A stretch of DNA of 54,287 nucleotides from Flavobacteriales bacterium (GTDB lineage Bacteria > Bacteroidota > Bacteroidia > Flavobacteriales_D > Parvicellaceae). The DNA is taken from contig JAQXDK010000029.1 in the NCBI GenBank assembly GCA_029251405.1, forward strand, positions 1-54,287, written 5' to 3'. Both the position numbers and the translations under genes were made by a program. This document shows, one piece after another, positions 3,948 to 48,355 of the stretch. The notes below the pieces were generated by a model. That model had not been told where the DNA came from. It did not search any database and worked only from the letters and a program-made list of their open reading frames with translations. How positions within the stretch are numbered: position 1 is the stretch's first letter; each line of letters starts with the position of its first letter.

Positions 3948-6179
3948 TTATAAATTGATTACATTATTAGAGATCTCTTTAAAGTCTTCTACCATTCCGT
4001 AATTTGTGGAATCTATATTTATATGTGATTCTTTAGAAACCTTTCCTAAATAAAGAGAATTTATACCATTGGTTTTAATTTCGTTTTTAAAAGAATCTAG
4101 CTGATCACTGGAAACAGTAACAATTACTCTACCTTGTGACTCACCAAATAGAAAAGAATCTTTTCTAATTTCATTAACGGTTTTAATTTCACAACCTAAG
4201 TTTGAACTCATGGCCATTTCTACTAACGAAACAAATAGTCCTCCGTCAGCACAGTCGTGAGCAGCGTTGATCAACTTTTTATCAATGAAATTTTTAATGT
4301 TTTGATGCAGTTCGAATTCTTCGTCTATATCAAAGTATGGCGCTGGTGACTCCAAAACTTCATGGTATTTCACTAGATATTCAGAAGAAGAAATGTCGTT
4401 TACAATTTTGCCTACTAGAAAAATATGATCGTTCTCAGATTTAAAATTAAGACTCATTATGTTTCTCACATCTTCAAGTAGACCAATCATTCCAATGGTT
4501 GGAGTTGGGAAAACAGGAACTTCCTTGCCGCTTACAATTGATTGGTTGTAAAAACTAACATTTCCACCTGTTACTGGAGTTGAGAATTTTTCACATGCTT
4601 TAGACATTCCTTTGATAGCTCCAACGAATTGCCAGTAAGACTCTGGATGGTACGGATTTCCAAAATTTAAACAATTGGTAATAGCAGATGGAACACCTCC
4701 AGATACGACTATATTTCTTGCCGCTTCTGAAACTGCAATAGCTGTTCCCATTTCTGGATCCGCATGCACATATCTAGAATTACAATCTACAGACATTGCA
4801 ATCCCTTTGTAAGTTCCTTTAACTAATGCAACTCCAGCATCTGAAGGGTTGTTAGTTGAGACGTTATTTGTACCAACCATACTGTCGTATTGTTCATAGA
4901 CCCACCTTTTAGATGCGATGTTTGGCTGATTAAATAAAAAACGACCAACTTCAACTAAATTTTCTGGAATAGATATTTTATTGATATTAAATTCTTTATA
5001 CTTTTTAAAATAAGCTGGTTCCTTATATTCTCTTTGATAGACAGGAGCTCCTCCACCTAAAACTAATGAAGAAGGAGGAACGCTAGCTACACATTGCCCA
5101 TTTTGAAAAAACTCTAGGGTATCTCCATTTGTAACTTCACCAATTAATTCACAATTTAAATCCCACTTATCAAATATTTTTTTCACTTCGGATTCCTTCC
5201 CTTTTTCAACAACAACGAGCATTCTCTCTTGCGATTCAGAAAGTAAAATTTCCCAGTCTTTCATATCTGACTGTCTTGTTGGGACTTTATCCAAATCTAT
5301 TTTCATACCAACATTTCCAGCTGCACTCATCTCAGAAGTTGAACAAGTAATACCTGCTGCACCCATATCTTGCATTCCAACAACTGCATCTGTTTTTGCT
5401 AATTCTAAAGAAGCTTCTAGTAATAATTTTTCTTGGAAAGGATCTCCTACCTGAACTGCTGGCAAATCATCCATAGAATCTTCTGTGATATCTTTTGAAG
5501 CAAAAGCAGCACCGTGAATACCGTCTTTTCCAGTTGAAGATCCAACAATAAAAACAGGATTGCCAGGACCTGATGCTGTTGCAGATATTAAATCATCTAC
5601 ATTCATTAAACCAGCAGAAAAAGCGTTTACCAAGGGGTTTTGATCATAACTCTCGTCAAAAAAAACTTCTCCTGAAAGAACAGGAATACCGAAGGAGTTA
5701 CCGTAATTACCTATTCCTTTAACAACACCTTTAAGAAGCCACTTGGTTCTTGGATTTTCATATTTCCCAAACCTTAAGGAATTCATTTGAGCAATTGGTC
5801 TTGCTCCCATAGTGAAAATATCTCTATTTATCCCACCTACACCAGTTGCAGCTCCTTGGTATGGCTCAAGAGCGCTGGGGTGATTGTGAGATTCTATTTT
5901 AAAGGCACAGGCCAATCCATCTCCAATATCCACTAACCCTGCATTCTCTTCACCGGCCTTAACCAACATATGAGGACCATCTTTAGGAAGTTTTTTCAAC
6001 CAGTGTATCGAGTTTTTGTAAGAACAATGTTCGGACCACATTACAGAATAGATACTTACTTCTGTGAAGTTTGGGATTCTCCCTAGAATTTCACAAATTT
6101 CAGTAAATTCTTCTTTTTTTAAGCCCAGCTCTAAAGCTTGATCTAAAGTAGCTGTATTATTTGTTTGTTTATTTGACAT
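3948..6179 (-). CDS. purL: Phosphoribosylformylglycinamidine synthase, short-form PurL
   Basis: 743 aa. Converts FGAR, ATP and glutamine-derived ammonia to FGAM in purine synthesis, in the cytoplasm. Hallmarks include SEHCSYKNS near residue 50, the substrate loop IESHNHPSALEPYQGAATGV near 95, GDPFQEK and MQDMGAAGITC around 250-275, and HDCADGGL near 640 in the second AIR-synthase-like half. The length is that of the Bacillus/Thermotoga small subunit, which needs separate PurS and PurQ partners; there is no fused glutaminase domain, and neither partner is in this window. ATG at 6179 is clear. The divergent gene at 6303 is separated by 123 nt, so the promoter must lie there. Confidence 0.97.
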   Translation of the reverse strand: MSNKQTNNTATLDQALELGLKKEEFTEICEILGRIPNFTEVSIYSVMWSEHCSYKNSIHWLKKLPKDGPHMLVKAGEENAGLVDIGDGLACAFKIESHNHPSALEPYQGAATGVGGINRDIFTMGARPIAQMNSLRFGKYENPRTKWLLKGVVKGIGNYGNSFGIPVLSGEVFFDESYDQNPLVNAFSAGLMNVDDLISATASGPGNPVFIVGSSTGKDGIHGAAFASKDITEDSMDDLPAVQVGDPFQEKLLLEASLELAKTDAVVGMQDMGAAGITCSTSEMSAAGNVGMKIDLDKVPTRQSDMKDWEILLSESQERMLVVVEKGKESEVKKIFDKWDLNCELIGEVTNGDTLEFFQNGQCVASVPPSSLVLGGGAPVYQREYKEPAYFKKYKEFNINKISIPENLVEVGRFLFNQPNIASKRWVYEQYDSMVGTNNVSTNNPSDAGVALVKGTYKGIAMSVDCNSRYVHADPEMGTAIAVSEAARNIVVSGGVPSAITNCLNFGNPYHPESYWQFVGAIKGMSKACEKFSTPVTGGNVSFYNQSIVSGKEVPVFPTPTIGMIGLLEDVRNIMSLNFKSENDHIFLVGKIVNDISSSEYLVKYHEVLESPAPYFDIDEEFELHQNIKNFIDKKLINAAHDCADGGLFVSLVEMAMSSNLGCEIKTVNEIRKDSFLFGESQGRVIVTVSSDQLDSFKNEIKTNGINSLYLGKVSKESHINIDSTNYGMVEDFKEISNNVINL

Positions 6180-14977: not shown

Positions 14978-15139
14978 TATTGATTTATGTTTTTTTTAGT
15001 ATTTTGATAATAAATAAGATGTGTTTAACTAAAACAAGGTTAAATTCCCTCTTGAATGTTTTTTTTTGTTTAAAATTTTAAAAGAAAAGCTAAACAAAAA
15101 AAATTATTGTTATATTTATACCACAAAAAATTAATTATT

Positions 15140-17692
15140 ATGCGATTTATATTAAAGTTTAGATTAGGTTTTACAATGTTTTTTACGCTTAATTTATGCC
15201 TGTTAAATACAAGCATTTCGCAATCATCGTTTCATATTGTTGGTACTAGTAACTTACAAAATACTAATTCAACATTTCCTTCCATTTATGGTAACTGGTT
15301 TAGAGGTGTTAAACATCAGATATTAATTAAGGCTAGTGAATTACAAGCATCTGGAATATCTGCAGGAAATATAACTGGATTAGCTTTTGATGTTGTCACT
15401 CCTTCAGGAGGAAGCCTTCAGGGTCTTGAAATTGAAATAAAATCAACTACCCAACAGTCTATAAGTAGTTGGAGTAACAATAATTTAATTTCTGTTTTTG
15501 GACCAAGTACATATAGTGACCAAATTGGATGGAATCAGCATGACTTCTACACTCCCTTTTACTGGGATGGTACTTCAAATATAATTATTCAAACATGTTT
15601 TTACAGCAACGGTTATTCTTCCAACGCCATAATGAATATGTCAGACTACTCCTACAATTCATTAATTTACAGAAGAAGAAGTAATTCTTCTCCTTGTAAT
15701 TCTAATTGGATTAATGGAGTTGAGTCCAAAAGACCAAATATTAGATTTTCGTGGGTTGACCCTAGCAGCCCCCCTCTAACAGATTTTTCAGTCAGCACGA
15801 CTTCTTCTTGCAATGGTCTAGTTAATTTTAGTGATTTAACTTCCAATTCACCTAGTTCCTGGCAATGGAATTTTGGAGATGGCACTATTTCAACACAACA
15901 GAATCCTAGTCATACTTACACCAATTCGGGATCTTTTACTGTCGAATTGATTACTACTAATCCGTTTGGGTCCGACACTATCATTTATAATAATTTAGTA
16001 CAAGTAAATTTAACCAACATTCCTCCTATTACGGCTTCTTGTTCTCCTGTTACTGGAATTGCAGGCCAACTCGGAAATTATGGGATTACGGAATTCAGTT
16101 TTGGAAACCTCTACAATGTTTCTGGAGGTTCTTCGGAAGGTTATTCAGACTTTACCTGTGATTCTTCTTTGTACTATATTGGGCAAAACTACACACTCAG
16201 AGCTATTCATACTTCTGCAATACCACAAAACTTTTTTGCATGGATAGATTATAACAATAACGGTGTTTTCGAAGTTCCAAGTGAAGAGATTGCATCAAAT
16301 TTATCTAGTGATTCCTCATCCATTATTGTTTCTATTCCTTCTACTGCAGTTCCCAACACACCATTACGACTAAGAATTATGTCAGATGCATCTTTTTCGG
16401 GACAACTAGACCCTTGTGATGATCCTGTCTATGGACAAGCAGAAGATTACACAATATACTTAGCAAATAATACCAATCCACCTGTTGCAGATTTTGTAGC
16501 TGATTTAAATTTTTCATGTGATGGTGTCGTACAGTTTTCGGACATTTCTACTAATGTTCCATATTCTTGGTATTGGGACTTTGGAGATGGCAATTCTTCT
16601 ATTTTTCAAAATCCAACGCACACTTACATAAATAATGGAATTTACAATGTCTCGCTTATAGCCAGTAACTTCTATGGATCAGATACCATTTTATTTTCAC
16701 AATATATTGAGGTGGACTCTACCAATTTGCTTACCCCAGTTTCCTACAATCCAAATACTTTAAGTTATTGCTGCGATTATGGTATTTCAAGAGTTCAGTT
16801 AGCTAATATTAATAAACCCTCTTTTGATGGTTCTGCTGGATACGAAGACTTTTCTTGCCTGGAGCAAGCATTTGTTGAAGCAGGTAGTAATTATGCGTTA
16901 AGAGTTTTCACAAGCGGCAACAACCCGCAAGACACAAGAGCTTGGATTGATTATAATAACGATGGTGTTTTTTCATCAAATGAAAAAGTAATGGAAAAAT
17001 TAAACCAAAACAATCCTGTTTCTATCATTCAAATTCCATCCAACATTGTTACGAACACTGCTGTAAGATTAAGAATATCTAGTGATGAAGTTGGTAATGG
17101 TAATGGTCCATTAAATGATGTTTTTAGAGGGCAAGTTGAAGATTATGGAATTGTAGTTGCTACTTGTCCTGAACCTTCCAACATTACCTTAGGACAAATT
17201 ACTAAAACTACAGTAGAATTAGCCTGGGACGCTGGAGGTACTGAGGATTCCTGGAATTTGAGATACGGTCCAGAAGGATTTGGAGTTTTTAGTGGTACTG
17301 GAACAACTGTAAATAATATTTTTGTAAATAACTTTTTTGTAACTGGGCTTAATGAATTGACAAGTTATGATTTTTATATACAGTCCATTTGTACAGGAAA
17401 CACTAGTAATTGGATTGGTCCATTCAGCGCCACGACATTAAATGTTATAAATAGTACTACACCAAAAGTAAATATTTACCCTAATCCAAATAATAAAATT
17501 TTTAATGTCCAAAGTTCTTCTAATTTAGAATCTATTGATATTTTAGATGTTATAGGAAGACCAGTAAAAACAATTAATATTCAAAAAAGTTTAGTGAATG
17601 TGAATATTGAAAATGAACCTTCTGGAGTATATTTATTGAAATTAAATTTTAAAGACGGAGTTTCTGTTTCAAAAAGAATCATCTGTAATTAA
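15140..17692 (+). CDS. T9SS type A secreted protein with PKD, GEVED and Fn3-like domains
   Basis: 850 aa from ATG 15140, which gives MRFILKFRLGFTMFF and a signal peptide ending in SISQ; an in-frame TTG at 15107 would only lengthen the leader. Order: a module containing VKHQILIKASELQASGI (about residues 23-200, shared with the protein at 1-2687); PKD domain (WQWNFGDG, about 235); GEVED domain (AWIDYNNNGVF to GQAEDYTI, about 320-440); second PKD (WYWDFGDGNSS); second GEVED (AWIDYNNDGVF to GQVEDYGIV); fibronectin III-like domain (TVELAWDAGG); C-terminal type A sorting tail starting VNIYPNPNNKIFNV. Such proteins are surface-attached or released; substrate unknown. The next gene begins 8 nt later. 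Confidence 0.9.
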   Translation: MRFILKFRLGFTMFFTLNLCLLNTSISQSSFHIVGTSNLQNTNSTFPSIYGNWFRGVKHQILIKASELQASGISAGNITGLAFDVVTPSGGSLQGLEIEIKSTTQQSISSWSNNNLISVFGPSTYSDQIGWNQHDFYTPFYWDGTSNIIIQTCFYSNGYSSNAIMNMSDYSYNSLIYRRRSNSSPCNSNWINGVESKRPNIRFSWVDPSSPPLTDFSVSTTSSCNGLVNFSDLTSNSPSSWQWNFGDGTISTQQNPSHTYTNSGSFTVELITTNPFGSDTIIYNNLVQVNLTNIPPITASCSPVTGIAGQLGNYGITEFSFGNLYNVSGGSSEGYSDFTCDSSLYYIGQNYTLRAIHTSAIPQNFFAWIDYNNNGVFEVPSEEIASNLSSDSSSIIVSIPSTAVPNTPLRLRIMSDASFSGQLDPCDDPVYGQAEDYTIYLANNTNPPVADFVADLNFSCDGVVQFSDISTNVPYSWYWDFGDGNSSIFQNPTHTYINNGIYNVSLIASNFYGSDTILFSQYIEVDSTNLLTPVSYNPNTLSYCCDYGISRVQLANINKPSFDGSAGYEDFSCLEQAFVEAGSNYALRVFTSGNNPQDTRAWIDYNNDGVFSSNEKVMEKLNQNNPVSIIQIPSNIVTNTAVRLRISSDEVGNGNGPLNDVFRGQVEDYGIVVATCPEPSNITLGQITKTTVELAWDAGGTEDSWNLRYGPEGFGVFSGTGTTVNNIFVNNFFVTGLNELTSYDFYIQSICTGNTSNWIGPFSATTLNVINSTTPKVNIYPNPNNKIFNVQSSSNLESIDILDVIGRPVKTINIQKSLVNVNIENEPSGVYLLKLNFKDGVSVSKRIICN

Positions 17693-17700
17693 TCAGTTAT

Positions 17701-20700
17701 ATGATAAGAGCATTATTATTTTTAGTATTTAACACCATACTAATAAGCAACATTTATTCCTCCCACCTTGTTGGTGGAAACTTAGCTTATGAGTTCGTAG
17801 GTGTACAACCTAATGGAGATTTTAGATACAAACTAAAATTGAATTATTACTTTGACTGTGGTTCGGCTTCAAATTGGCAACCCCCTAATATCCCTCAAAA
17901 TATGTCAGTTGGTGTTTACGCTCACGACGATCCAACAGATATTTATCCAACAACTTCAGGCAGTTATCCTAAATATGGAGGAACAGACGTTGATATGGTT
18001 TACAATTCGGCGGTTCAACAATATTTTGAAGTTACTCCAAACAATCCCAGTGGATGTACAGTTGGTACATCAACATGCGTTTACACAGTTTTATACATTG
18101 GTCAAATTGATCTTGCTCCTGTAAATCCATCAACTAGTCAACCGGTTATAGGTGGATATTTTTTGATACATGAAGCATGCTGTAGAAATGGTGGGGGTAA
18201 TGGAATTGATAATATACAATCACCCGGAAGTGCTGGAATGGCATTTTATTCTTATATACCTCCCTATGGATATGAAAATAATAGTCCAATATTTACAGAC
18301 AACCCTGTACCCTTTATTTGTGCAGGAGATACCACTACATTTCTTAATACTGCCATAGATCCAGACGGAGATGAGTTACTTTTTAGTTTTACTGCTCCCC
18401 TTGATGGTAACCATGCAGGTGGATTTGGAGGAGGTGCTAACAATGTAGGTAATGGTGGTGCTGGACCTGGTGGTAGCTTAACATGGTACCCTACTAACTA
18501 TCCATGGCCTATTGAGGAAGTATCGTACGCAGGAGGCTATTCCTATCAACAACCTTTTGGTCCAACTGGTTATTATTATATTTCTGCTTCCAATGGATTA
18601 ACTAAATATAAATCGAATAACCAAGGAAAGTTTGTTGTTGGATTAATAATAAAAGAATATCGAGATGGAACACTAATAGGGATATCTACAAGAGAAGTTC
18701 AACTTAACATTATTGCTTGTCCACCTAATGATGCACCATCACTAACACCAAACATTAATCCACAAGGTGGATTTGATTCCACAGAATATTTTATTGAAGA
18801 AGGAGAAAACTTATGTTTTGATATAGCTTTTGTTGATCCAGATGTACCTTCAGATAGTTTAACTTTAAACGTTAATGGACAAATTTTTGATTCCTTATTT
18901 ACCAATCCTCCTGCAACAGTTGGTGGATATTTTGACACCATATATAGTGACCCGTTAAATGGAATAGATACAGCTAAAACAACTTTCTGTTGGGACACAG
19001 ACTGTGGACAAGCTCAAAACTTACCTTATATTCTATCAGCATCTGTCTCTGACAGAGGTTGCCCACCTAAAACTACCAGCATAGTTTATGAAGTAACAGT
19101 AAGTAAAACCAATCCGCCTGCCAACATTTATGGAAGTGTAATTGAATGTCAAAATGCAGAAACAGTTTATACAACTGATGATAATCCAAATATCTCAGGA
19201 TATACATGGGACGTCTCAGCGGGAGGAATTATAACCCAAGACTATGGAGATAGTGTTAAAGTTTTTTGGAGTGCCCCTGGAACAGGAACAGTATTTTTAA
19301 AAGCTATTAACCAATATGGATGTGAATCAGATCCAATTTCAATGAACACAACAATAACACCAGCTCCTACTGTAGACGCTGGAAGCGATGTTAACATATG
19401 TCAAGGAGATAGTGTCTTGCTATCTGGAACTACCACATCATTACCCGGATACATTTCTTTATGGCAACCCAATACCAATGTATCTAGTCCCACCAATATG
19501 TCTACTTGGGTAAGTCCAACAGTGACAACATCTTACTATTTATTAGTTCAAAGAGGGACTTCTTGCGTTGGTGGAGATAGTATTACAGTAACTGTAGACG
19601 TAGGTAATATTGATGCGGGAATCGATAATACAATTTGTTTAGGAGATTCTGTTCAGCTTAATGCAACTGGTAATGGATCTAATTTTGTTTGGACTCCAAC
19701 AAACAATATTTCTCAAACGAATATTCAAAACCCAACAGTTTGGCCAGATATAACTACCATTTATAATGTGCAGTTTACATCATCCAACAATTGTACAGCA
19801 GAAGATTCAGTGGTTGTATTTGTTAACCCAGTTCCTGGAACAAGTCCTAATTTTATTCTGAACGGAAGTGCTAATGCTTTAGCTAATAACACCTACCAAA
19901 TGACGAGTCAAATTAATAACGATTTTGCTTCCATATGGAACAGTTCTATGCTAAATCTAAATCAGCCTTTTCAAGTTGATGCAGAACTTAACTTTGGTAC
20001 ACAAGATGCAACTGGAGCTGATGGTATGGCATTTGTCTTACAACGAACAAGCACAAATTATGCTCCCTCATTAGGAAATGCAGATTTTGCCATTATTGAC
20101 CCATCTTTAATAGTAGAGTTTGATACTTGGAATAATCAGATCTATAATGACATTAATGATGACCATGTTGCAATTTTAAAAGATGGGTCTTCAGATCATA
20201 ATATAAATAGCTTACTAAGTCCCGTTTCCCTTGGGAACATAGAAGATGGTGCTTGGCACACTATATCTATAAACTGGGATCCATTGTCTCAAAATTTTAC
20301 TGTTAATTTTGACGGTGTCCAAGTAGCTAATTTAAATTATGATATTGTTCAGAATATTTTCAGTAATAACCCTGCGGTATACTGGGGTTTTACTGCTACC
20401 ACTGGTGGAAGTAGTAATAACCAAAGTATCAGGTTTACTAATACCTCTGCATTTAGCCCTATTAATGATTTAGTGATATGTGAATCCGACACGGTAACGA
20501 TAAATTCACCTGTAATTACAGACAATTATTTGTGGGAACCTAATGTGGATATCAGCAACAATACAGCAGAATCACCTGAATTTAGTCCATTAGTTACCTC
20601 CAACTACTTTTTTACAGGAACCAACAGTTTCGGATGCTCAGTAAAAGATACTTTTCAGCTTACAGTTAACAATTTACCACTAGTTTCAGCAGGTACAGAC

Positions 20701-23700
20701 CAAGATGTTTGTATTGGAGATTCCATCACCTTAAATTCATCAGGAAATGCAGCTTCTTTCACATGGGACAATAGTGTAATTGATGGTCAAATATTTGAAG
20801 TAAATAATACTATAAATTATATATTAACTGGTACGTCTTTGGATGGTTGTATCAATACTGACACTGTTTTAATAACAGCTTTAGCTTCGCCATCTACTTA
20901 TGCTGGTAACGATATTAATCTATGTGTAAATGATTCTATACAATTACAAGCCTCTGGAGCTGATAACTATTTATGGTCACCAAATACATTTTTAAGTGCT
21001 TCCAACATATCTAATCCATGGGTTATTCCTACAACCAACACTACTTATATTTTAACAGGTAGTTTAACCAACGGTTGCACAAAAAATGATACTATTAATG
21101 TAGCTGTTAACCCATTACCAGTTCTGACCACTTCTAACGACGCCGTAATTTGTGAAGGAGATACAATCCAAATTTCAGTATTTGGTGGGAATACTTTCAA
21201 TTGGATTTCTGCTAATAATATTTCAAATTCTTCCATTAGCAACCCACAAGTTTGGCCTACCTCCACTACTACATATAAAGTTTTAGCAAGTGACATCAAT
21301 ACCTGTGCAGATACTGCGGAAATCACTATTACTGTCAATCCAAAGCCTTCTGTAAATGCTGGTGTTGATCAAAATATTTGTTTTGGTGATTCAACATCAT
21401 TAAACGCTTCTGGAAATGCTAATAGTTTTAGCTGGAACAATGGAATAATAAATGGTGGATTATTTGAAGCTGTAGTTACTCAAGATTATATTTTAACTGG
21501 AACTGATTTAAACAATTGTAGCAATCAAGATACCGTTACTGTTAATACACTTAATTTACCCATAATAGACGCTGGACAAGATGAGACAATTTGTATTGGA
21601 GACTCTATTCAGTTATTTGTGACTGGCGGTGATAATTATTTTTGGACACCTAACATTAATATCAACAATAACGTTGTTTCTGACCCAATTGTTTATCCAT
21701 CCAATCTTACACAATATGTGGTTACAGGTACAGATATTAATAATTGTTCCAATAAGGATACCATTAATGTAAATGTTAACCAATTACCAACCCTTAGTAC
21801 ATCAAATGATGCAGTTATATGTGACGGAGACACCATTCAAATTCAAGCTTTTGGAGGTACTGTTTACAATTGGCTAACGACAGATTCTATAAATAACACT
21901 GGTATTAGTAGTCCATTGGTTTGGCCTTCAGCCACAACACTTTATTCTGTGATTGTTAGTGATGCCAATACTTGTAAAGATACAGCTGAAGTTCTGATTA
22001 CAGTTAACCCAAAACCAGTCGTGAATGCTGGTTTAGACCAAGATATTTGTTTTGGAGATTCTACTCTCTTGACTGCATCTGGTAGTGCTATCAATTATTC
22101 GTGGGATAATGGAATTCTAAATAGTATTCTATTTGAAGTAACTTCTTCAATTGATTACATTGTTGTGGGAACAGATATTAATAATTGCTCTAATAATGAT
22201 ACTGTTACCGTTAATGTATTGGCACTTCCAGCTGTAAATGCTGGACAAGATGTAGTTATATGTACAGGTGATTCTATTCAAGTTAGTGCTTCAGGTGCAA
22301 ATAATTATTCATGGTCTCCTAACACTAATATTAGTAATAACGGCATCTCAAGTCCATTCATATATCCTACTGTATTAACTGATTATATTGTAACTGGAAT
22401 TGATCTTAATAATTGTTCAAATACAGACACCCTAAAAGTGGAAATTAATCAACTCCCTAATATTACTATATCTAACGACACATCTATTTGTGTGGGAGAT
22501 AGCATTTTTATTGCAGCAAATGGTGGAGTAACATACTCATGGTTAAACACTGATTTTATAAGCAATGTTAATACATCAAATCCTGAGATATGGCCGTCAA
22601 CAACTACAACATATTCTGTAATTGTTACCGATAATAACAACTGTTCTGATACTTCAGAAGTAAATATTCTTGTAAATAATTTACCGAATGTAAATGCTGG
22701 AAACGATCAAGACTTATGTATAGGTGACACTGCACAAATTATTGTTTCAGGAGCTGTAAATTATCAGTGGAGTCCTAACATAAATATTTCATCTACTATA
22801 TCAAATTCTATTGACGCTTGGCCATCAAATACAACCAATTATGTCGTAACAGCAGTTGATGCTAATTTTTGTTTTAATACAGACACTATAAAAATTAATA
22901 TCCTTGCATTGCCACAAGCAGACGCTGGATCTGATTTATGGATATGTCCAGGAGTATCAATCTCTTTAAATGCTGTTGGTGGAAATCAATATAGCTGGGA
23001 GCCTGACTCTACTCTAAATGTTAGCAACATTGCTAATCCACTTGCAAATCCATTTGATGACGAAACTTATGTAGTTACTGTTATAGATACTAATAACTGT
23101 GTGAATTATGATACTTTATTTTTAAAGGTTAACCGTATTGTACCTACAGACGCTGGTGGAGATACACTCAAAATATGTGGTTCGTCAATTGTAAATTTAG
23201 GAGGAAATCCTACAGCTCCGATCGGCTCTACCTATCAATGGCGGTCTAATGAAACTATTTTGGGACCTACTAACGCCAATCCTACATCTCAACCTTTAAC
23301 ACCAAATTGGTTTATTGTGGAAACTGCTAACGATACTTGTACCGGAATTGATTCTGTGTTTGTTGACTTTTTTGGTGACGTTATTGGAAGTTCTTCTAAC
23401 GACACATCTATATGCTTTGGTGAATCAACAACTTTATTATCAAGTGGCGGAAGTTCTTATTCTTGGACACCCATAACCAATCAAGTTGGAGATACCATTT
23501 TAATTAACGATTCTTCATCTTCCCCAACAGTTGCTCCTTTAAACACAACAACTTTTACTGTTTCAATTTTTGATACAAACGGTTGTTCTATTGTCGATTC
23601 AACAACAATCATTATTAAACCTCTACCTACCTTTGACTTGGGAATAGATTTATCATATTGTATTAACGATAGTGTTTCCTTATCGGCACCTACAGACCAA

Positions 23701-25290
23701 AACTACAACTACTTATGGTCTCCTAATTATGCTATAACGAACACTACTATTTTTAATCCTTTAGTTTTTTCTCAGCTTGACACCATGTATACGTTAGCTT
23801 TAACTGATACATTGAGTTGTACCAACTATGATTCTATTAGAGTAACTATTAATAGCCTCCCAAGTATAAGCTTGAATAGTAGTTTGGATTCTATTTGTCT
23901 GGGAGACTCCAGCGATTTATCTTGTTCAGCAACAAACTTGACTTATGACTGGACACCTAACACTAATATTACCAATGTTAACGTTTTTGATCCAACTGTT
24001 TTTCCTAACTCAAGTATTTATTATTTCTTGGCAGCGACTGATGGTAATGGATGTACAAGTACAGACTCCATATTTATTACAGTACTTGACTTACCAATTG
24101 CAAATGCTGGAAATGACACAGCCGCTTGTCCTGGTATCCCAATGCAATTGAATGGATCGGGTGGAATTGTACCAGTTTGGATAAATGCCAACACATTAAC
24201 AAACCCTAATATATACAACCCAATTGCTGCCCCTAGCGTTTTAACCAACTACACTTTAAAAGTAACAGACAACTTCGGATGCGTTGGTTACGATACTGTT
24301 TTAGTGGATGTTTTCAATAACGCGGTTGCCAATGCAGGAATTGACATTGATACTTGTGCAAACGTTCCAGTAATTTTACAAGCGTCTGGAGGATTAAGTT
24401 ATTTATGGTACGATTCGTTATATCTTAATCATAATGATGTTGCCAATCCTATAGCCTTCCCAGATAACGATATGAGTTTTATTGTAGAAGTAACCGACAG
24501 TAACGGTTGTTTAGACACGGACACCATGAATGTATTTATATTTTTAGCTAATGTTTCTAGTGACACCATTATTTGTAAAGGCAATAATTTCCAAGCAAAT
24601 ATTTTTGGAGATAATCCAAACTCTGTAAGCTGGTCTCCAACAAACGGGGTTTCTGACCCATCTACATTGAATCCAGTAATTGCTCCAGAAGAAACAACTA
24701 CCTACCTAGTAAGTATAGATGATGGGAATGGGTGTATTATTGTTGACACCCTTGTTGTGCAGATACCAGAAATTGAAGCAATATTTGACACTTTAATAAA
24801 CCCAGGTTGTAATGGAATAGAAGTATTATATACGAATACATCAGATCCTGAATTAAACTTTTCTTGGTTGTTTAGTGATAATGAAAGTTCATTAAATAAT
24901 GAGGTACTTAAAACATTTCAATTCGGCTCAGACTTTTCCGGAACTCTATTCATAGAAGATACTAACGGATGTATAGAAAGTAATACATACGGTGGAAGTG
25001 CACTAACCTTTGACGACTATTTTACAATTACAGATCCAAATGTATTTACTCCAAATGGTGATGGAGAAAATGATGAATTTATAATTCAAATACCTGAAAA
25101 AGTTCAACCTTGTTCAGAACTATCCATTTACAATAGATGGGGACAAATTCAATATTTCTCTACTGGGTTCAATCTAAAGTGGGATGGTAGAAATAATGTA
25201 GGTAGTGAAGCTCCTTCAGGTACCTATTTCTATACACTAAATATTAAGGATAAATCTTTTAAAGGTGCTTTGAACCTGATAAGAAAATAA
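17701..25290 (+). CDS. 2529-aa T9SS type B secreted repeat protein with L-type lectin domain
   Basis: Signal peptide, then SHLVGGNLAYEFVGV (about residue 21) and a conserved N-terminal module with EACCRNGGGNG. A cadherin/PKD-like region follows to about 530. Then about 21 modules of the form DAGxDxxICxGDSxxLxASG, WxP, ISN, NP, TTxYxVTG, NNCxNxDT, each about 71-76 aa with a conserved Cys pair. A legume-type (L-type) lectin domain interrupts the array at about 716-919 (FGTQDATGADGMAFVLQ, IVEFDTWNN, VYWGFTATTGGS). The C-terminal about 88 residues are a gliding-motility-associated (CHU_C) type B sorting domain: VFTPNGDGENDEF, LSIYNRWGQIQY, WDGRN, SGTYFYTL. Likely a very long surface adhesin binding carbohydrate through the lectin; the ligand is unknown. 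Confidence 0.93.
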   Translation: MIRALLFLVFNTILISNIYSSHLVGGNLAYEFVGVQPNGDFRYKLKLNYYFDCGSASNWQPPNIPQNMSVGVYAHDDPTDIYPTTSGSYPKYGGTDVDMVYNSAVQQYFEVTPNNPSGCTVGTSTCVYTVLYIGQIDLAPVNPSTSQPVIGGYFLIHEACCRNGGGNGIDNIQSPGSAGMAFYSYIPPYGYENNSPIFTDNPVPFICAGDTTTFLNTAIDPDGDELLFSFTAPLDGNHAGGFGGGANNVGNGGAGPGGSLTWYPTNYPWPIEEVSYAGGYSYQQPFGPTGYYYISASNGLTKYKSNNQGKFVVGLIIKEYRDGTLIGISTREVQLNIIACPPNDAPSLTPNINPQGGFDSTEYFIEEGENLCFDIAFVDPDVPSDSLTLNVNGQIFDSLFTNPPATVGGYFDTIYSDPLNGIDTAKTTFCWDTDCGQAQNLPYILSASVSDRGCPPKTTSIVYEVTVSKTNPPANIYGSVIECQNAETVYTTDDNPNISGYTWDVSAGGIITQDYGDSVKVFWSAPGTGTVFLKAINQYGCESDPISMNTTITPAPTVDAGSDVNICQGDSVLLSGTTTSLPGYISLWQPNTNVSSPTNMSTWVSPTVTTSYYLLVQRGTSCVGGDSITVTVDVGNIDAGIDNTICLGDSVQLNATGNGSNFVWTPTNNISQTNIQNPTVWPDITTIYNVQFTSSNNCTAEDSVVVFVNPVPGTSPNFILNGSANALANNTYQMTSQINNDFASIWNSSMLNLNQPFQVDAELNFGTQDATGADGMAFVLQRTSTNYAPSLGNADFAIIDPSLIVEFDTWNNQIYNDINDDHVAILKDGSSDHNINSLLSPVSLGNIEDGAWHTISINWDPLSQNFTVNFDGVQVANLNYDIVQNIFSNNPAVYWGFTATTGGSSNNQSIRFTNTSAFSPINDLVICESDTVTINSPVITDNYLWEPNVDISNNTAESPEFSPLVTSNYFFTGTNSFGCSVKDTFQLTVNNLPLVSAGTDQDVCIGDSITLNSSGNAASFTWDNSVIDGQIFEVNNTINYILTGTSLDGCINTDTVLITALASPSTYAGNDINLCVNDSIQLQASGADNYLWSPNTFLSASNISNPWVIPTTNTTYILTGSLTNGCTKNDTINVAVNPLPVLTTSNDAVICEGDTIQISVFGGNTFNWISANNISNSSISNPQVWPTSTTTYKVLASDINTCADTAEITITVNPKPSVNAGVDQNICFGDSTSLNASGNANSFSWNNGIINGGLFEAVVTQDYILTGTDLNNCSNQDTVTVNTLNLPIIDAGQDETICIGDSIQLFVTGGDNYFWTPNININNNVVSDPIVYPSNLTQYVVTGTDINNCSNKDTINVNVNQLPTLSTSNDAVICDGDTIQIQAFGGTVYNWLTTDSINNTGISSPLVWPSATTLYSVIVSDANTCKDTAEVLITVNPKPVVNAGLDQDICFGDSTLLTASGSAINYSWDNGILNSILFEVTSSIDYIVVGTDINNCSNNDTVTVNVLALPAVNAGQDVVICTGDSIQVSASGANNYSWSPNTNISNNGISSPFIYPTVLTDYIVTGIDLNNCSNTDTLKVEINQLPNITISNDTSICVGDSIFIAANGGVTYSWLNTDFISNVNTSNPEIWPSTTTTYSVIVTDNNNCSDTSEVNILVNNLPNVNAGNDQDLCIGDTAQIIVSGAVNYQWSPNINISSTISNSIDAWPSNTTNYVVTAVDANFCFNTDTIKINILALPQADAGSDLWICPGVSISLNAVGGNQYSWEPDSTLNVSNIANPLANPFDDETYVVTVIDTNNCVNYDTLFLKVNRIVPTDAGGDTLKICGSSIVNLGGNPTAPIGSTYQWRSNETILGPTNANPTSQPLTPNWFIVETANDTCTGIDSVFVDFFGDVIGSSSNDTSICFGESTTLLSSGGSSYSWTPITNQVGDTILINDSSSSPTVAPLNTTTFTVSIFDTNGCSIVDSTTIIIKPLPTFDLGIDLSYCINDSVSLSAPTDQNYNYLWSPNYAITNTTIFNPLVFSQLDTMYTLALTDTLSCTNYDSIRVTINSLPSISLNSSLDSICLGDSSDLSCSATNLTYDWTPNTNITNVNVFDPTVFPNSSIYYFLAATDGNGCTSTDSIFITVLDLPIANAGNDTAACPGIPMQLNGSGGIVPVWINANTLTNPNIYNPIAAPSVLTNYTLKVTDNFGCVGYDTVLVDVFNNAVANAGIDIDTCANVPVILQASGGLSYLWYDSLYLNHNDVANPIAFPDNDMSFIVEVTDSNGCLDTDTMNVFIFLANVSSDTIICKGNNFQANIFGDNPNSVSWSPTNGVSDPSTLNPVIAPEETTTYLVSIDDGNGCIIVDTLVVQIPEIEAIFDTLINPGCNGIEVLYTNTSDPELNFSWLFSDNESSLNNEVLKTFQFGSDFSGTLFIEDTNGCIESNTYGGSALTFDDYFTITDPNVFTPNGDGENDEFIIQIPEKVQPCSELSIYNRWGQIQYFSTGFNLKWDGRNNVGSEAPSGTYFYTLNIKDKSFKGALNLIRK
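20677..22683 (+). repeat. Three tandem 669-nt super-repeats (modules A-B-C)
   Basis: Within the 2529-aa protein the modules follow an A-B-C pattern three times: 20677-21345, 21346-22014 and 22015-22683, each exactly 669 nt. Within each, A is 213 nt (motif WDN/WNNG, no ISN segment), B is 228 nt (DAGQDxxICxGDSIQL, SPNxxIS) and C is 228 nt (TSNDAVICxGDTIQI, VWPSxTTxYxVxxSD, DTAEVxITVN). This corresponds to residues 993-1661. Nucleotide sequences have diverged, so the duplications are old. Confidence 0.93.
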
Positions 25291-45029: not shown

Positions 45030-45842
45030 ATGATTTCTAAAACAAACTTGATTTTAATAGCTACATTATTAATTATTGTAAGCTCTTGTACAATCAATTC
45101 AAACCGAATGCTCAGAACTCCGAAAAATTATGAGTATGATAAAATCGACAATGAATTAAGTGAACTAGAATACCAAATTGATGTCAACGACCAATTAACT
45201 TTTCAATTATATACCAACAATGGTTTTCAATTAATTGATATGTTCAGTGCCACTGCTAACGGTGGAATTCAGACTCAAAGGATGATGCAAAGTGGAGTTG
45301 CAGGTGCAGGTTTAGGTTCAGGAGGCGGTCTTTATTTAGTTCGAATAGATAGTTTAATTGAATTCCCAATAATTGGAGACATTAACTTAGTTGGAAAAAC
45401 AATAAAGGAAGCAGAAATTTATTTAGAAAATATTTTCGCAGAGTTCTATGTAGACCCATTTATAGTTTTAGGAGTAATTACCAGAAGAGTTTTTTTGTTT
45501 AGCGGGAGTTCTGGAGGAGAAGCATCTGTGGTGAATTTAGGTTTTAATAATATGACACTTTTCGAAGTTTTAGCTTCTGCTGGAGGAATAAGTTCTAGTA
45601 ACAGCTCCAAAAAAATTAAAATTATAAGAAGAACAAAAGAAGGAATCAAAATATTTAACGCTGATTTATCAACGATAAACGGTATAAATGAAGGAAATAT
45701 GATTATGCAATCTCATGATATTATTTATATAACTCCCAACTTTAATTTGGGATCAGAAATTGCACAGGATATAAATTCTGTTTTTTCCTTTATATCTACA
45801 ATATCCATAGTTTGGTTAACACTAACTCAAATAAATCAATAA
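45030..45842 (+). CDS. Wza-like polysaccharide export lipoprotein
   Basis: 270 aa. Lipobox IIVSSC (Cys 20). Poly_export domain begins EYQIDVNDQLTFQLYTNNGF (about 50) and continues through DSLIEFPIIGDINLVGKTIKEAE, then an SLBB-like segment with FLFSGSSGGEASVVNLGFNN (about 153) and LASAGGISSSNSSKKIKII. A C-terminal hydrophobic segment (about 248-266) fits the outer-membrane helix. Together with the kinase downstream it forms the export channel of a Wzx/Wzy-type polysaccharide system. Stop and next start overlap as TAATG. Confidence 0.92.
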   Translation: MISKTNLILIATLLIIVSSCTINSNRMLRTPKNYEYDKIDNELSELEYQIDVNDQLTFQLYTNNGFQLIDMFSATANGGIQTQRMMQSGVAGAGLGSGGGLYLVRIDSLIEFPIIGDINLVGKTIKEAEIYLENIFAEFYVDPFIVLGVITRRVFLFSGSSGGEASVVNLGFNNMTLFEVLASAGGISSSNSSKKIKIIRRTKEGIKIFNADLSTINGINEGNMIMQSHDIIYITPNFNLGSEIAQDINSVFSFISTISIVWLTLTQINQ

Positions 45843-48355
45843 TGAGATCAGAAGAATTTAAAAATATAGAGGATAATCTTCAGCGTTATAAGGAAAATGT
45901 TAATAGTTTAACACAAGAATTTGAACTAGGATTATTTTTATATCTCCTTAATAAAATAAAATGGTACGCGATTTTAATATTTCTGATAAGTTTTTTTTCT
46001 GCAGTGATCTTTTTAAGATATTCTCAAAAAAATTATGAAACAAGTGCCCTAATTCAAGTAGCTGTTAAAGAACAACCAAATGGGTTTGGTGATTTATATT
46101 CATATAATATTAATACCAACCTCAACTCTGAAATTGCGTTAATGAATTCACAAAAAGCAATTAAAAGAGTAATAGAAGACTTAAAATTAAAAGTATTTTA
46201 TTATTTCGAAGGAAAAATTTTAACTCGGTTCTTATATAATCAGAGTCCTTTTTTTCTTGATAATTTTTCTTTAAAAGATAAATCACTTATTTCAAAAAAT
46301 ATTTACCTAAATTTTGATGGAACTTTCTTTTATTTAACAAATAAAGAGGAAACTATAACTTATGGTAATTATATATTACCAAATAAATTTTTTTCTTCTA
46401 AGTATTTGTCAGGTAAATTAAACTTTTCAGATTGGAAAAAAACAATGGAGTCTATTGAAACTAATGAGAAATTATTTTTCAAAATTCCAACTCAAAATGA
46501 AATAAAACAAGCTATTATCAATAACCTTAATATAAATATTGAAGATCCTTCTGCCCACACCATTAGAATAATTCATAATCATACGAATCCATATTTTTCA
46601 AAAGACATATGCAATTCAATTGTTAAAATATACATGAGTTATGAAATAACTAAGAAGCAAAAAAGTACTGACAAAATTGTAAAATTTATCAATACACAAA
46701 AAGATAGTGTTAGAAATAGATTAATCAAAAGTGAAAAAGACTTGAGACTTTTTAAAAAAAATAATGATTTTAAAAATAACTTAATCAATATTACTGGTTT
46801 TAAAGAAAAAGCTGAAGAAGTAGAAAGCGAAATTGTAAAATTACAATTAGATATTGAACTTATGGACCAGTTCAGCAGCATGTTTGAAAATAATTTGTCA
46901 ACTGATCTTAATAGTAGCTCCGTAAAGAATATTTCTCTATTGACTACTATTTTTTATAATGAGTCTCTTACATCCAAAATGATTGAACAATTGCAAAAAG
47001 ATGTACTAAGAAGAGATCAATTGTTAAAAGATATAACCCCCAATAATAAAAGTATTGTTATTTTGAATGGAGAGATAGAAGAAAGTATATTGTACATTAA
47101 AAAGGCTGTTAAATTACTTAAAAAAAGCTACAGTGAAAAAGCAAAAAAATTAGAACGAAAAATCTCCTTCGTTGATTCTGAATTTTCAATAATTCCAGAA
47201 AAAGAACTTGAACTTTTAAGGCTTCAACAAGTAAAAGAAATCAATAACAAATATTATATGGAACTTTTAAATAGAGAGATAGAATACGAATTATCAAAAG
47301 CTGGAATAACTACTTATAATGAAGTTTTACAAAATGCTCCGCTTAACGAAAACCCCGTATCGCCAAATAAATATTTAGTATATAGTATATTTTTAGGAGT
47401 TGGATTTTTTATATCAATAATTATAATTTTATTAAATTATCTTACACATGACAAAATTACTGCTCTTCACGAAATAAATAAATATGCTCAAACAGAAATA
47501 TCTACTTTAGGTATGATCCCCTTTGTAAAAAGAGATATGAAAGTATCTCAACTTATTGTCGATAAAAGCCCCAAGTCCATGCTTACAGAATCTTTCAGAG
47601 CTATAAGAACCAACTTACAGTTTATTGACAACAACAAGAAATCTAAATTAATTGCAATCAGCAGTACTATATCAGGAGAAGGAAAAACTTTCTTAGCCAT
47701 CAATTTAGCAGGAATAATAGCATTTACTGGAAAAAAAGTAGTCGTAATTGATTTAGACATGAGAAAACCTAAACTCCACTTAGGTTTTGGAGTAAAAAAT
47801 AAAATTGGTATGAGTGATTTACTTTCTGGAAAAAGTATAATCAAGGACGGAATTAATAAAAGCAGTCTAAATTCTTTAGACTTCATAACTGCAGGAACTT
47901 TACCTCCAAATCCTTCAGAACTAATAATTAGCGATAAATTTGATGAAATTATAACAGAATTAAAAGAAATATACGATTATGTTGTCATTGACAACCCTCC
48001 TGTAGGATTAGTTACTGACGGTATACCCATATTACAAAAAGCAGATTATCCAATTTATGTTTTTAAAGCTAATTATTCAAGAAAGAAATTTGTCCAAAAT
48101 GTGCAAAAACTTATAAAAGAAAATGAAATAAAAAAACTTGCTGTTGTCCTTAATGGTGTAGACGCAAAAAGAAATGAATATGCTAACAAATATGGCTATG
48201 GCTACGGCTATGGCTACGGCTATGGCTATGGCTATGGCTACGGCTATGGCTATGGCTATGGCTATGGTAAATCTAATAATTCATACTATACTGAAGAGGA
48301 ATCAGACGAGAAAGACAATATTTTTAAAAAGTTAAAATCTAAATTTAAAAGGTGA
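45842..48355 (+). CDS. Wzc-like polysaccharide co-polymerase with BY-kinase domain
   Basis: 837 aa from ATG 45842 (TAATG overlap with the preceding stop); an in-frame TTG at 45812 would overlap the export gene by 31 nt. Two transmembrane helices (about 38-56 and 510-530) bracket a long periplasmic part with a coiled coil (about 280-470). The cytoplasmic kinase has Walker A ISSTISGEGKTF (about 605), Walker A' VVIDLDMRKPKLH and Walker B YVVIDNPPVGLVTDG. The C-terminal Tyr cluster is (Tyr-Gly)13 at about residues 784-809, then SYYTEEES. It controls polymer length through tyrosine autophosphorylation. The tail is encoded by a hexanucleotide repeat. Confidence 0.93.
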   Translation: MRSEEFKNIEDNLQRYKENVNSLTQEFELGLFLYLLNKIKWYAILIFLISFFSAVIFLRYSQKNYETSALIQVAVKEQPNGFGDLYSYNINTNLNSEIALMNSQKAIKRVIEDLKLKVFYYFEGKILTRFLYNQSPFFLDNFSLKDKSLISKNIYLNFDGTFFYLTNKEETITYGNYILPNKFFSSKYLSGKLNFSDWKKTMESIETNEKLFFKIPTQNEIKQAIINNLNINIEDPSAHTIRIIHNHTNPYFSKDICNSIVKIYMSYEITKKQKSTDKIVKFINTQKDSVRNRLIKSEKDLRLFKKNNDFKNNLINITGFKEKAEEVESEIVKLQLDIELMDQFSSMFENNLSTDLNSSSVKNISLLTTIFYNESLTSKMIEQLQKDVLRRDQLLKDITPNNKSIVILNGEIEESILYIKKAVKLLKKSYSEKAKKLERKISFVDSEFSIIPEKELELLRLQQVKEINNKYYMELLNREIEYELSKAGITTYNEVLQNAPLNENPVSPNKYLVYSIFLGVGFFISIIIILLNYLTHDKITALHEINKYAQTEISTLGMIPFVKRDMKVSQLIVDKSPKSMLTESFRAIRTNLQFIDNNKKSKLIAISSTISGEGKTFLAINLAGIIAFTGKKVVVIDLDMRKPKLHLGFGVKNKIGMSDLLSGKSIIKDGINKSSLNSLDFITAGTLPPNPSELIISDKFDEIITELKEIYDYVVIDNPPVGLVTDGIPILQKADYPIYVFKANYSRKKFVQNVQKLIKENEIKKLAVVLNGVDAKRNEYANKYGYGYGYGYGYGYGYGYGYGYGYGYGKSNNSYYTEEESDEKDNIFKKLKSKFKR
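48191..48268 (+). repeat. Hexanucleotide repeat (TAYGGC)13 encoding Tyr-Gly
   Basis: Thirteen consecutive six-base units TAT/TAC-GGC (the last one GGT), encoding (Tyr-Gly)13 in the kinase tail. Ten units use TAT and three use TAC. Gain or loss of units keeps the reading frame. Confidence 0.97.

Follow-up and report, generated by a model that had tools for sequence, protein, structure and literature searches.

Repeat proteins often grow by multi-domain blocks, frequently in the middle of the array; nebulin grows by seven domains, while the Ig domains surveyed grow mostly by one and weakly by two (PMC1553488). In the A-band super-repeats of titin the domains are position-specific (PMC10665226). 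Among bacterial proteins, GhpA of Aureispira sp. CCB-QB1 (5898 aa) has been described as a heptameric hook protein that the T9SS exports (PMC11205867, PMC13319060). In the literature on Ig-like T9SS repeats and on super-repeats in adhesins, nothing direct was found. Multi-domain super-repeats are already a known kind, and the array at 20677-22683 of the window (the whole stretch of 54,287 nt that was analysed) is a bacterial case with a unit of three. Like nebulin and titin, it shows block-wise growth with position-specific domain types, modules of the same position clustering and copy number changing by whole units; unlike them, it has three Ig-like domains per unit and is part of a bacterial secreted protein. 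Its domain content, above curated cut-offs, is that of the Ig_7/CHU_C T9SS type-B proteins (PF19081, PF13585, TIGR04131), but outside its family most of the surveyed Ig_7 arrays grow by single modules or pairs, whereas this one is built in threes.

The whole array lies in frame within a single open reading frame of 2529 aa (17701-25290, forward strand). Pfam and NCBIfam matches in the encoded protein comprised Ig_7 (PF19081) in seven stretches (82.2 bits, gathering cut-off 27.3), an L-type lectin domain (PF18483) at residues 717-913 (19849-20439; 129.1 bits, cut-off 78.3; E 2.8e-37), PKD domains, and at 25036-25284 a C-terminal sorting domain recognised both as CHU_C (PF13585; 69.5 bits, cut-off 27) and as TIGR04131 (50.3 bits, cut-off 35). 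Proteins of these domain families are exported to the cell surface. By its sorting domain the protein is a predicted T9SS type-B substrate, and the combination of a lectin with a stalk-like string of domains points most likely to an adhesin. Its head, N-terminal and carrying the lectin, would be kept off the cell by the Ig_7 rod, with the type-B signal at the C-terminus serving for export. The preceding gene (15107-17692) encodes a second secreted protein that ends in a T9SS sorting tail, 12 PorP/SprF matches were found in the genome of the window, and nearby genes with a Pfam match were mostly housekeeping or metabolic in appearance. Further downstream, a Wzc-like tyrosine kinase gene (45812-48355) carries about 13 Tyr-Gly pairs near its C-terminus, encoded by a TATGGC hexamer repeat (48191-48267) whose number could vary without frameshift, altering the tyrosine cluster. 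The named relatives are marine assemblies of Crocinitomicaceae/Flavobacteriales.

The lectin of the window protein (residues 712-911) matched the legume-type lectin 7elv/7exo with E 1e-23; that PDB chain is a lone lectin domain of 209 aa, while the lectin described here sits within a long multi-domain protein. The lectin is absent from the orthologs of genomes G004 (L052) and G007 (L053), so the head is not constant. Lectin and the adjoining module M0 (19849-20676) vary together as a cassette. The nearest relative, the gene of G003 (L058), shares 89% of the first 634 residues with the window protein, whereas identity drops to 50% in the lectin and to 46% in M0, where G003 is closer to another genus. 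This pattern looks like exchange or loss of a head domain.

Upstream of the array lie two adjoining Ig-like modules, i1 (19366-19602), a landmark kept across the gene lineage, and i2 (19603-19833), followed by the lectin and by M0 (20449-20676), which flanks the array and falls outside the triplet pattern. The array itself consists of nine modules: A1 (20677-20889), B1 (20890-21117), C1 (21118-21345), A2 (21346-21558), B2 (21559-21786), C2 (21787-22014), A3 (22015-22227), B3 (22228-22455) and C3 (22456-22683). It is followed by the conserved modules D, E, F, G-K and L (22684-24774), of which F, at about 23143-23373, and L, at about 24544-24774, are landmarks. A sequence-only reading of this DNA had described three A-B-C triplets with matching lengths and diverged nucleotide sequence, and this observation is confirmed, with coordinates and lengths exact: the 2007 nt equal 3 x 669, with modules of 213, 228 and 228 nt (71, 76 and 76 aa) in each of the three copies, and nucleotide identity at lag 669 was 61%. 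At the protein level, positions one period apart (lag 223) shared 57% identity and those two periods apart (lag 446) 48%, and the best lags that are not a multiple of 223 reached 27% (299) and 26% (76). Module similarity at lag 3 had a z of 4.7 against 1000 shufflings of the module order. The array starts sharply at A1, where lag-223 identity rose from 0.21 at residue 941 to 0.50 at residue 979, and the triplet pattern stops at C3. Tandem Repeats Finder missed the array (period limit 500, copies diverged).

Within the window protein, same-letter modules shared 54% mean identity versus 38% for different letters, even though B3 was equally near to A2 (58%) and to B2 (58%). At four-fold degenerate sites the triplets agreed at 0.37, about chance level; the duplications are therefore old, and the copies have been held alike by selection on the protein. 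The TSNDAVIC-like opening and the DTAE ending, which had been taken as invariable in C modules, read TSNDAVIC and DTAE in C1 and C2, but C3 has ISNDTSIC and DTSE. Evidence that triplet length itself is constrained was weak. Among 211 related modules 76 aa was the most frequent length (107), and the orthologs share the short form of A (19 of 20 modules have 71 aa) and the 76 aa of C (20 of 20), so that the exact lengths follow from domain type and shared descent.

Orthologs were present in four genomes of the window's genus (G002, G004, G007, G010), in a second genus (G016, G017, G018) and in a third (G022). Nearly all genomes are unfinished, many being metagenome assemblies, and the contigs of G003, G016, G018 and G037 break at or near the array. 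In G003, the two ends of the gene lie on contigs 1 and 22 (L058, L059), both of which stop near the array. The ortholog of G007 (L053) lies in two open frames of 370 and 1757 aa near position 162667 of contig 4, which is a frame break or a sequencing error. Where contigs were long enough, the order i1, i2, (lectin), M0, (ABC)n, D, E, F, G-K, L and sorting domain was shared.

In a tree of 84 modules from nine orthologs, the A modules formed one clade (support 99/99), as did the C modules (100/99), and E and M0 were each one clade as well. The B modules split into two groups, a B1-type and a B2/B3-type. Apart from this split of B, modules clustered by letter as predicted; clustering of neighbours, which would speak against a duplicated triplet, was absent from this tree. 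Copy number in the relatives changed by whole triplets, with either two or three present. The window gene, G002 and G004 have three triplets, and G010, G007, G017 and G022 have two, between one shared set of flanking modules. Two triplets are probably the older state. Part of the genus may, however, have started out with three, G010 having lost a copy, and for this reason the number of gains cannot be counted exactly.

The relationships among the copies also revealed the register of the last duplication. In the three-copy genes, the first and the middle C formed a clade with support of 100/100; grouping of the middle C with the last copies gave an AU p of 0.07, short of rejection, and a clade of first and middle B was rejected (AU p = 0.002). 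The diagnostic residues of the middle triplet, counted as agreeing with copy 1 or with copy 3, were 10:19 for A, 6:15 for B and 16:10 for C in the window gene and 8:20, 3:23 and 26:4, respectively, in G004; they agreed across all three three-copy genes and were clearest in G004. As the middle C resembles C1 while the middle B resembles the last copy, the block that was added is C1-A2-B2. The block gained last is C-A-B, the simplest history being A1 B1 [C1 A2 B2][C1' A2' B2'] Clast. In the window gene, C1 opens and B2 closes the first of the two blocks (21118-21786, 669 nt), the C1-like C2 opens the second (21787-22455), and C3 groups with the last C of the two-triplet relatives. Segmental duplication of a three-domain unit, as the sequence-only reading had proposed, is borne out by the tree and by the whole-triplet copy number, but A-B-C was not the register of the last event: this frame validly describes the period and not the duplication.

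We consider it probable that the gene encodes a large T9SS surface protein, from a marine member of the Crocinitomicaceae, with a higher-order repeat that grew by duplication of C1-A2-B2, its stalk changing in steps of three. An older gene would have had two triplets, (A1 B1 C1)(A2 B2 Clast). Recombination between these two copies one triplet out of step, by unequal crossing-over or an equivalent route, would then have doubled C1-A2-B2 and given three triplets, and fold and length would have remained under selection while synonymous sites became saturated. The putative stalk of this gene lineage lengthens and shortens almost exclusively three domains at a time.

Landmarks i1, F and L were located by class profiles in the wider gene lineage, covering 21 proteins, and the module counts obtained from them are the new element of this study. 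The count from i1 to F was 4, 7, 10 or 13 in 18 of the 21 proteins. It was 13 in the window gene, G004 and G002 (in the last inferred, as the contig starts at i2), 10 in G010, G007, G017, G022, G038 and G013, 7 in G019, G021b, G036, G012 and G014, and 4 in G028, G025 and two proteins of G026. The remaining three proteins, all of genus g8, had a count of 2. In the second segment, from F to L, five modules were present wherever both landmarks were seen, except in genus g7 with eight. Distant relatives of family f7 (counts of about 7, 7 and 9) were excluded because the first landmark was unsure, and the G021 copy on contig 9 because of inserted stretches without Ig modules. At least five of the six required count changes were of three modules, with p about 0.02 at a one-in-three chance each, a rough guide given that the number of events is our own tally and that changes at the same site are not independent.

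In a survey of 94 Ig_7 runs, lag 3 led in 13 of the 19 strong arrays of the family and in 7 of the 30 outside it (Fisher p = 0.003, arrays not being independent). Outside the family, lag 1 led in 13 strong arrays and lag 2 in 8, which rules out a universal rule of three for Ig_7 arrays; the rule belongs to the lineage of the window gene. That three domains make up the stalk's structural unit, as the sequence-only reading had implied, is plausible and has comparative backing in the steps of three across genera and in the three-domain period of GhpA, but not in the arrays outside the family, which mostly expand by one or two. For the lineage itself, the module counts suggest that three domains are the building unit of the putative stalk. 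Other proteins of these genomes carry repeats of their own. L148 (contig 4 of the window genome) and L104 (G007) are paralogs with 70-aa A-like modules and a three-module unit, with identities at lag 3 of 74-77% and 94-99%. In contrast to the triplet arrays, a protein of 3465 aa in G014 (L085, G014:C3) has expanded by single modules: it carries about 35 near-identical Ig_7 modules of 70 aa, with a mean identity of 93-96%.

In sequence, GhpA is the closest solved relative of the window protein (E 2e-158 with a profile, 1e-109 with the whole protein), with PDB entries 9flp, 9fls, 9flu, 9flv, 9flw, 9flx, 9fly and 9g8b. Both have a homologous tandem chain of Ig-like domains and a related C-terminal domain, residues 2445-2524 of the window protein matching 5816-5894 of GhpA. 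However, the window protein is less than half as long, has no homologous N-terminal head and is not co-linear over its full length: its N-terminal 440 or so residues had no counterpart in GhpA, and the N-terminal profile matches began at model position 442. The heptameric hook assembly is described for GhpA. An AlphaFold2 model of the triplet (pLDDT 94.8, pTM 0.74) consisted of three beta-sandwich domains. Its best solved matches were fragments of GhpA, on which the full triplet superposed at 3.6-3.9 A with Z of about 11, compared with 7-11 A for triplets of titin or NCAM. A six-domain model, meant for comparing long-range twist with GhpA, had a pTM of 0.52 and an rmsd near 11 A, too poor to be informative.

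Why the step should be three can be read in several ways. We see an even chance that it is a by-product, copies three modules apart recombining best after the first triplet duplication, without selection. Such an origin is compatible with the history preferred above and departs from it only in that the size of the step would bring no benefit. It accords with the peak of similarity at lag 3 within arrays, with C1-A2-B2 as the expected product of out-of-step recombination between two triplets, and with the recent copies in G013, G014 and G025, which are mostly 86-99% identical; but first duplications elsewhere (g2, g7, the paralogs L148/L104, G120, G126 and GhpA) also seem to have been of three modules. 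Alternatively, one structural period of the rod, about a full turn for instance, may span three Ig_7 domains. Only insertions or deletions of three would then keep the head, the faces of the stalk and any assembly partners in register, and selection, rather than mechanism, would set the step. This is possible, though we lean against it. Multiples of three occur at two sites in the lineage, including the region after F in g7 (5 to 8), which has no ABC modules; lag 3 leads far more often within the family than outside; and in GhpA, a heptameric hook protein, profile matches of the same phase recur at 1659, 1908, 2155 and 2404, and also at 1819, 2068 and 2317, a spacing of 247-249 residues equal to about three domains of some 83 aa. 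Against it stand the arrays outside the family, where lags 1 and 2 are no rarer than lag 3, the count of 2 in genus g8, and a six-domain model that fits GhpA too poorly to show a common long-range geometry. An artefact, either of compositional likeness among N-, T-, S- and D-rich modules or of mostly metagenomic assemblies multiplying or collapsing the repeat, is highly improbable, as it is contradicted by the module tree and the orthologs, with A and C clades across nine genomes at support of 99-100, by the gap between same-letter and different-letter identity, and by window copies that at about 61% DNA identity are too diverged for assembly confusion.

Recombination between existing triplets remains the more economical account of most of the step-of-three pattern. 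If recombination alone is at work, the lineage offers a clean natural case of growth and loss of an in-register coding super-repeat over several genera. The bolder proposal of a geometric quantum of three Ig_7 domains for T9SS stalk proteins, in the family of the window protein and in the GhpA grappling hook, strikes us as unlikely. If it were true, the stalk could change only by three domains without losing register with its head, its base or a partner chain; bacteria would then follow a simple rule, open to test, in adjusting how far their long surface proteins extend, and the solved grappling-hook protein would be tied to ordinary adhesins of marine bacteria.
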